Positions 35,751 through 36,729 of a stretch of DNA of 38,539 nucleotides are shown here, in pieces. A program made the position numbers and the translations under genes. The first letter of the stretch is position 1; each line of letters opens with the position of its first letter. The notes beneath the pieces are model-generated. The model saw nothing but the letters and a program-made list of their open reading frames with translations. It was not told where the DNA came from and made no database searches. The stretch is from positions 1 through 38,539 of the forward strand of contig JAKATW010000155.1 of the NCBI GenBank assembly GCA_021827945.1, in the 5' to 3' direction. Origin of the DNA: Thermoplasmata archaeon (lineage in GTDB: Archaea > Thermoplasmatota > Thermoplasmata > Thermoplasmatales > GCA-001856825).

Positions 35751-35854
35751 CTACCTCTTATATTTCTGCTCCTCGTCTTTTTGGTCGGATGGTTTGGGTA
35801 GATGGAAGTCTTACATCTTTCCATTAATTGAGGTACAATTCTGACTAGAAAAGA

Positions 35855-35954
35855 TGCCGGGGCTGGGATTTGAACCCAGGACCTCCGGATTTCTCCGGAT
35901 AATTAAGCGTAACTCCCTATGAGTCCGGCGCTCCACCAGCTAAGCTACCCCGGC
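35855..35954 (-). tRNA. tRNA-Met (CAU, elongator type) with a 27-base intron
   Basis: Complete cloverleaf on the minus strand: acceptor GCCGGGG/CCCCGGC plus A73, UA at 8-9, D arm GCTTAGCTGGTGGAGC, anticodon stem CCGGA/TCCGG, loop CTCATAA, variable loop AGGTC, T arm CTGGG-TTCAAAT-CCCAG. Removing 27 bases after CTCATA (position 37) leaves a 73-base mature tRNA. The intron contains a second TCCGG that can pair with the exon stem and form the bulge-helix-bulge splice site. CAU with a G1-C72 pair indicates elongator Met rather than initiator; an Ile2 tRNA is an outside alternative. CCA is not encoded. The 5' fifteen bases overlap the eS1 gene. Confidence 0.92.
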
Positions 35955-36617
35955 TTCGGATTCTTCTTCCTCTTCTTCCACCGGCTCCTCTTCTACTTTT
36001 TCTTCCCTTTTTACCCGCTTGGTTGGCTCGAAAATCTCTGAGCTTCTGATCTCAATCTTCTTTGCCGGATAGATGACCTTGATCTGATCGTAAAGATCGT
36101 TGTATATCTGAGGAGATAGCATGTAAACTACAAACTGACCGACCGGCTGTTCCTTGACCTTTGCCTTTAGGAACTCTGCTATCTTGTTTCTTATTCCGGT
36201 CTCGACGTTGTTTATTACCTTCCTGTCCACTATTATAAGTGGTTTGATCCTGATGTTGACGTTGTCGGATGTGACTGCATCCACGACAAGGTCTATCCTT
36301 GTCTTCCTTCTCCTGATCATCCTTCTTATGTAATCCTGGTTTATTTCGTGTCCCTCAAACTCAGTGAATGCCCTGTCCCCTTCCGTTTTCGTTACCCTGA
36401 AAAAGAGTTTGACGTGACTCTGCTTGTAGTCTCCGGTTATATCCGAAAGAGACGCCTCCGACACCCTGCCTACCATCTCTTCGGGGGAAGAAGCAGGTGA
36501 GCTACCTATTTCCTTCTTGCCGAACGAATCATTGGCCAGTATCGTATACCAGCTCTTTGCCTTCCACTTGTCCTTCACTTTCTTTGTGGCAATTCTGCTT
36601 GCTTTCTCCTTAGCCAA
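35940..36617 (-). CDS. rps3ae: Small ribosomal subunit protein eS1 (S3Ae)
   Basis: 225 residues of the archaeal/eukaryotic eS1 family: DKWKAKSWYTILANDSFGKK near the start, EGHEINQDYIRRMIRRRKTR (~105-125), VDAVTSDNVNIRIKPLIIVD and YDLYDQIKVIYPAKKIEIR, broken here to YDQIKVIYPAKKIEIRSSEI. It ends with a long acidic tail (VEEEPVEEEEEESEAGVA). The start is TTG 36617 (LAKEKASRIATKK); upstream frame stops at once, so no earlier start exists. A TATA box TATTTATTAA at 36651-36660 implies a leader of about 12 bases. The last four codons and the stop (GCC GGG GTA GCT TAG) are also the first 15 bases of tRNA-Met. Confidence 0.93.
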   Translation of the reverse strand: MAKEKASRIATKKVKDKWKAKSWYTILANDSFGKKEIGSSPASSPEEMVGRVSEASLSDITGDYKQSHVKLFFRVTKTEGDRAFTEFEGHEINQDYIRRMIRRRKTRIDLVVDAVTSDNVNIRIKPLIIVDRKVINNVETGIRNKIAEFLKAKVKEQPVGQFVVYMLSPQIYNDLYDQIKVIYPAKKIEIRSSEIFEPTKRVKREEKVEEEPVEEEEEESEAGVA

Positions 36618-36729
36618 ACACTACCATCTCTTCTATCGGCAACGTTTGAGTTAATAAATACTTTTTTGAGTATTGTACGTCTCGATGATATACAACCCTC
36701 ATTCCTTGGCGGAGGCTTATTTCCTCATC

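Follow-up and report, generated by a model that had tools for sequence, protein, structure and literature searches.

The gene for ribosomal protein eS1 in this Thermoplasmata archaeon ends inside the tRNA-Met gene that follows it on the same strand: its last four sense codons and stop, GCC GGG GTA GCT TAG, are also nucleotides 1 to 15 of the tRNA. The overlap is real and conserved, neither chance nor error, and Pfam, Rfam and ARAGORN agree exactly with the coordinates (35940-35954) and codons that an earlier note on this DNA had given for it. Our reading (probability about 0.78) is that eS1 and tRNA-Met form an old bicistronic unit whose stop codon has moved into the tRNA, and that cleavage of the transcript would leave a nonstop message. 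The following features were placed in the window, by which we mean the whole stretch of 38,539 nucleotides that was analysed.

36651 to 36660, minus strand: TATTTATTAA, picked by eye from the sequence as a candidate TATA box for joint eS1-tRNA-Met transcription.
35940 to 36617, minus strand: eS1 (ribosomal S3Ae) gene, TTG start at 36617, 225 amino acids plus stop, with a Pfam match.
35955 to 35987, minus strand: pre-tRNA leader, made up of the eS1 codons that encode EPVEEEEEESE; it lacks a TATA-like element, has low synonymous divergence, and repeats the GCCGG with which the tRNA begins.
35940 to 35954, minus strand: eS1/tRNA overlap, 15 nt, present in 9/9 genomes of the genus.
35942 to 35940, minus strand: eS1 stop codon, TAG.
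35954 to 35855, minus strand: intron-bearing tRNA gene, CCA not encoded (Rfam RF00005, 61.4 bits; ARAGORN with introns).
35919 to 35921, minus strand: anticodon CAT, read from the sequence.
35891 to 35917, minus strand: tRNA-Met intron, 27 nt, after position 37; length from ARAGORN, placed by hand.

The eS1 frame matches PF01015 well above the curated Pfam cut-off (1.5e-60; 204.5 bits versus 29.3), and its final ∼29 residues form a low-complexity acidic tail beyond the Pfam domain. The 5' end of the tRNA falls exactly at a codon boundary of eS1, GAA/GCC, and the shared 15 nt cover the 5' strand of the acceptor, nucleotides 8 and 9, the 5' strand of the D stem, A14, and G15. In a test of 28 tRNA genes of this genome, only tRNA-Met has a same-strand frame of at least 80 codons terminating inside it; the next-closest such frames stop 21 to 54 nt upstream of their tRNA genes.

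ARAGORN, with introns allowed, returned the identical span (35954 to 35855) and a 27-nt intron; without introns, it detected no tRNA at the locus. Its name for the tRNA, Ser(aga), was rejected as an artefact: because TCCGG is repeated in the intron, the program misplaces the intron, and with the intron after position 37 the tRNA is Met(CAU), the name that ARAGORN itself gives to two homologues (L007 and L009). The intron was placed by hand, from the 7-nt anticodon loop. The tRNA has the anticodon CAU, the loop CUCAUA|A, the acceptor GCCGGGG/CCCCGGC, the anticodon stem CCGGA/TCCGG, and a G1-C72 pair; the initiator marks, the GGG/CCC anticodon-stem pairs and A1-U72, are both absent. By these sequence features it is an elongator tRNA-Met and not an initiator, so where the earlier note spoke of "initiation or elongation supply", elongation is the one concerned. 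Of the 40 tRNA matches (L213 to L252) in an assembly that is 87% complete, no other is an elongator tRNA-Met gene; the other CAU tRNA, L218, resembles tRNA-Ile2. No initiator tRNA-Met was recognised among the same 40 matches, probably because of a gap in the assembly.

We found eS1 in 9/11 genomes of the genus, and aligning the eS1/tRNA-Met junctions, as the earlier note had proposed, gave the 15-nt overlap in every one of the nine. These genomes, mostly drafts from metagenomes, represent distinct species-level lineages, with eS1 84 to 91% identical to that of the window. Synonymous divergence is heavy (parsimony places about three changes on each fourfold site over the tree), with the overlap unchanged; the shared tRNA bases themselves vary (the third shared codon is GTA, GTG, or ATG), and still the overlap stays.

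The gene order is far older than the overlap. tRNA-Met lies directly downstream of eS1 in about 188 of the 202 Thermoplasmata genomes examined, a set made up of the genomes that our searches listed rather than a random sample. The count combines 172 of 183 informative genomes in a first set (170 by automatic search and two more, from family f20, by eye) with 16 of 19 in a second. The gap between the two genes was measured in 170 genomes and is 0 to 20 nt in 125 of them: 12 overlap, 23 have gaps of 0 to 2 nt, 102 of 3 to 20 nt, 18 of 21 to 60 nt, and 15 of more than 60 nt. The pairing of eS1 with tRNA-Met is old and class-wide; the overlap seems to have been a late elaboration of it.

A second overlap occurs in an unrelated genus, g88 of family f33, where eS1 and tRNA-Met share 39 nt in 3/3 genomes (L114, L153, and L154). 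There, base 13 in the D stem is C, the frame continues, and the stop TAG begins at U36, the last base of the anticodon, and takes in A37 and the base after it. The sister genus, g105, has an ordinary eS1 stop 10 nt upstream of the tRNA; the g88 overlap arose independently of the one described here.

In family f20, at loci L070 and L132 (genomes G140 and G130), tRNA-Met begins some 35 to 40 nt past the eS1 stop and seemingly has a second intron besides that of the anticodon loop, inserted in the T loop and ∼30 nt long (GGGTTCAAA...AAATCCCCGTCCTCGGCA); ARAGORN misses this tRNA.

Most likely, the overlap is a derived condition, in which an old bicistronic unit no longer has a stop codon separate from the tRNA. 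In the mechanism that we propose, eS1 and elongator tRNA-Met would be an old Thermoplasmata transcription unit of two genes, both served by the eS1 promoter. A small 3' change in eS1 (an indel), dating from the ancestor of the genus, may have thrown the original stop out of frame, and the shifted frame would run on until it met its next stop, TAG, at tRNA nucleotides 13 to 15. This frameshift origin of the extended frame rests on few bases: TCTGAA stands immediately 5' of the tRNA in 8/9 genomes, which puts an out-of-frame TGA 1 nt before the tRNA, and a 1-nt eS1-tRNA gap is common in related families. T13, and hence the TAG, is also present in the sister genus g2 and in several other genera of the order that have no overlap. 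The idea that T13 is an adaptation to supply eS1 with a stop was therefore ruled out; eS1 took over a TAG that already existed and had not arisen to serve it.

The uncut transcript would encode an eS1 ending in AGVA. A cut at the tRNA 5' end, presumably by RNase P, would free the tRNA and leave an eS1 message that ends ...GAA with no stop codon. Such a message would end in a full codon with an empty A site, and ribosomes arriving there would need rescue of the Pelota/ABCE1 type; their product would lose only AGVA, from an acidic tail outside the conserved domain. Pelota-like proteins, assigned by similarity and scoring below the curated cut-off, were found in 8/8 genomes of the genus searched. 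Given the anatomy of the locus and the known action of RNase P, a complete message and a mature tRNA should be mutually exclusive on any single RNA. The layout may nevertheless cost little, since the message can be translated repeatedly before cleavage. The overlap, its conservation, the synteny, and the lack of a TATA-like box belonging to the tRNA are observed directly; co-transcription, the RNase P cut, the nonstop fate, and the frameshift origin are all steps that we infer.

The earlier note went further, and treated each transcript as a choice between message and tRNA. One form of that idea is a selected switch that ties eS1 synthesis to the supply of elongator tRNA-Met through the ratio of the two products; it would be added to the co-transcription model and is not an alternative to co-transcription. 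Several observations are in its favor. The overlap has been kept in all nine species-level genomes despite the changes at fourfold sites, and none of the tail's Glu codons has mutated to a stop, for which a single base change would do. Synonymous divergence is low at the 3' end of eS1, 0.19 to 0.20 over the last 23 codons against a mean of ∼0.47 over all codon windows, and 0.23 over the last 16 leader codons, a value matched by 5/197 windows; this could, however, reflect constraints on the RNase P leader or the acidic tail itself. Nearly all relatives that retain this pair of genes lack the overlap, the TAG within the tRNA is older than the overlap, and the message can be translated many times before, and even after, cleavage. 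A regulatory choice is possible, but we rate a selected switch as unlikely.

The leader also bears on this question. In all nine genomes (L002 to L009 and the window), fold prediction sets it in competition with the native tRNA structure: the predicted probability of native acceptor pairing is 0 to 0.21 with the leader and 0.94 to 1.0 without it, and the drop comes mostly from the leader GCCGG, which copies the tRNA 5' end. Compared with synonymous recodings, the native sequence ranks no higher than the 7th percentile in 6/9 genomes, and recoding relieves the predicted misfold in most. Similar drops were, however, predicted at 42/155 other loci (27%), and the nine genomes share ancestry and are not independent cases; g88 has no strong competing leader fold (P of 0.5 to 0.9), and no such leader-tRNA competition is predicted for g2. 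The conserved eS1 tail codons GAG CCG GTG ... TCT GAA, in which the GCCGG of the tRNA 5' end recurs, might act as an RNA switch by pairing with the 3' half of the tRNA, a speculative suggestion from fold prediction that we regard as improbable. If it were true, the pre-tRNA would stay misfolded until translation of the eS1 tail opened the leader, and release of tRNA-Met would depend on eS1 translation.

The co-transcription model competes with a reading in which the tRNA has a promoter of its own in the eS1 coding tail, so that two separate RNAs are made and their processing is unaffected by the overlap. A TATA-like element is typical of most archaeal tRNA genes and of most in this genome, where A+T content at -33 to -22 averages 0.77 to 0.90 over 35 other tRNA genes. 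In Haloferax, 39 of 52 tRNAs have a nearby start site, and those without one are a minority (PMC4983044). At tRNA-Met, A+T content from -36 to -25 is 0 to 0.33, and the search for a TATA box within the eS1 3' end that the earlier note had called for found none above shuffled sequence: the best score from -50 to -15 was 3.5, compared with a median of ∼7 for the other tRNA genes and 4.1 for shuffled sequence. On this motif score, 3 of the 35 other tRNA genes match tRNA-Met or fall below it.

The same holds across the genus, in which A+T content at -34 to -22 averages 0.31 in the nine genomes, against a background of 0.55, and the stretch is purine-rich. Many relatives with gaps of 0 to 2 nt likewise have no TATA-like element; among relatives, an A+T peak occurs mainly where the gap exceeds 50 nt. 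In family f11, tRNAs behind gaps of more than 60 nt (for example, L148, L211, and L212) have an A+T content of 0.66 to 0.80 at -34 to -22, against a background of 0.41 to 0.52, as if they had gained a promoter of their own. A weak or non-canonical promoter inside eS1 is possible, but we consider separate transcription of the tRNA quite unlikely. Because no TATA-like element stands at promoter distance from the tRNA and the synteny is tight throughout the class, tRNA-Met is likely made from the joint eS1 transcript, a judgment made at the level of motifs. On that account, a cut at the 5' end of the tRNA would part the message from its stop codon, and this much of the processing claim in the earlier note is retained without the regulatory choice attached to it.

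There is next to no chance that an assembly or sequencing error erased an upstream stop: the genome is a draft metagenome assembly in 161 contigs, but the same arrangement recurs in nine separately assembled genomes whose eS1 sequences are 84 to 91% identical. A shared upstream stop in relatives had been named as a sign of such an error, but this bears on the case only in part. Stops 0 to 20 nt upstream of the tRNA do occur in other genera; within this genus, all genomes tested have the overlap, which makes it derived rather than erroneous. Equally remote is readthrough or recoding of the TAG, with eS1 running on into the tRNA; the frame beyond it is open in this genome up to a TAA near 35813, but intron lengths vary among species (27, 19, and 17 nt) and the downstream frame is not conserved, and no PylS scored above the cut-off in 8 genomes (best match, 34.6 bits versus 178); pyrrolysine and stop readthrough were rejected on these grounds.

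The closest precedent for the overlap is selB-selC. In Alpha- and Gammaproteobacteria, selB frames enclose tRNA-Sec or end inside it, and a nonstop logic has been proposed (Mukai 2021; PMC8124441). In both systems, a translation gene enters the tRNA behind it on the same strand, with the frame running from tRNA nucleotide 1, and the entering frame is conserved among species (here in 9/9 and, independently, 3/3 genomes). Processing would in both yield a nonstop message, proposed for selB-selC as alternative expression of protein and tRNA (PMC8124441). The stop lies at tRNA nucleotides 46 to 48 in Dyella and Luteibacter (PMC8124441) and at 13 to 15 in the eS1 case. The bacterial pair joins tRNA-Sec to SelB, the factor dedicated to it, and stoichiometry is an obvious reason for that; eS1, in contrast, is an archaeal small-subunit ribosomal protein and not a dedicated partner of the intron-bearing elongator tRNA-Met that it overlaps, and the unit has no downstream coding gene. 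In Thermococcus kodakarensis, tRNA-Lys lies in the 5' untranslated region of TK0306 and forms an mRNA-tRNA co-transcript (PMC4247193); as we propose for eS1, a tRNA is co-transcribed with a protein gene, but there it precedes the coding region and shares no bases with it. Animal mitochondria offer a further likeness, as tRNA excision sets the 3' ends of messages and overlaps of tRNAs with coding sequences are known, according to work cited in PMC8124441.

We found no report of eS1-tRNA-Met linkage or overlap in the open-access literature. If our reading is correct, this is a conserved cellular, non-mitochondrial archaeal case in which a ribosomal-protein message has to lose its stop codon whenever the tRNA is made from it. 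Mitochondrial stop codons are often completed by polyadenylation; we know of nothing like this for eS1/tRNA-Met. Relatives with gaps of 0 to 20 nt, those with gaps of more than 60 nt and a candidate promoter, and the second, independent overlap are natural comparators, with which the cost or benefit of coupling could be tested.

A second, partial eS1-like frame was seen in genome G034 (contig C16, 101637 to 101873); it is 63% identical to residues 133 to 212 and lies ∼10 kb from the main copy.
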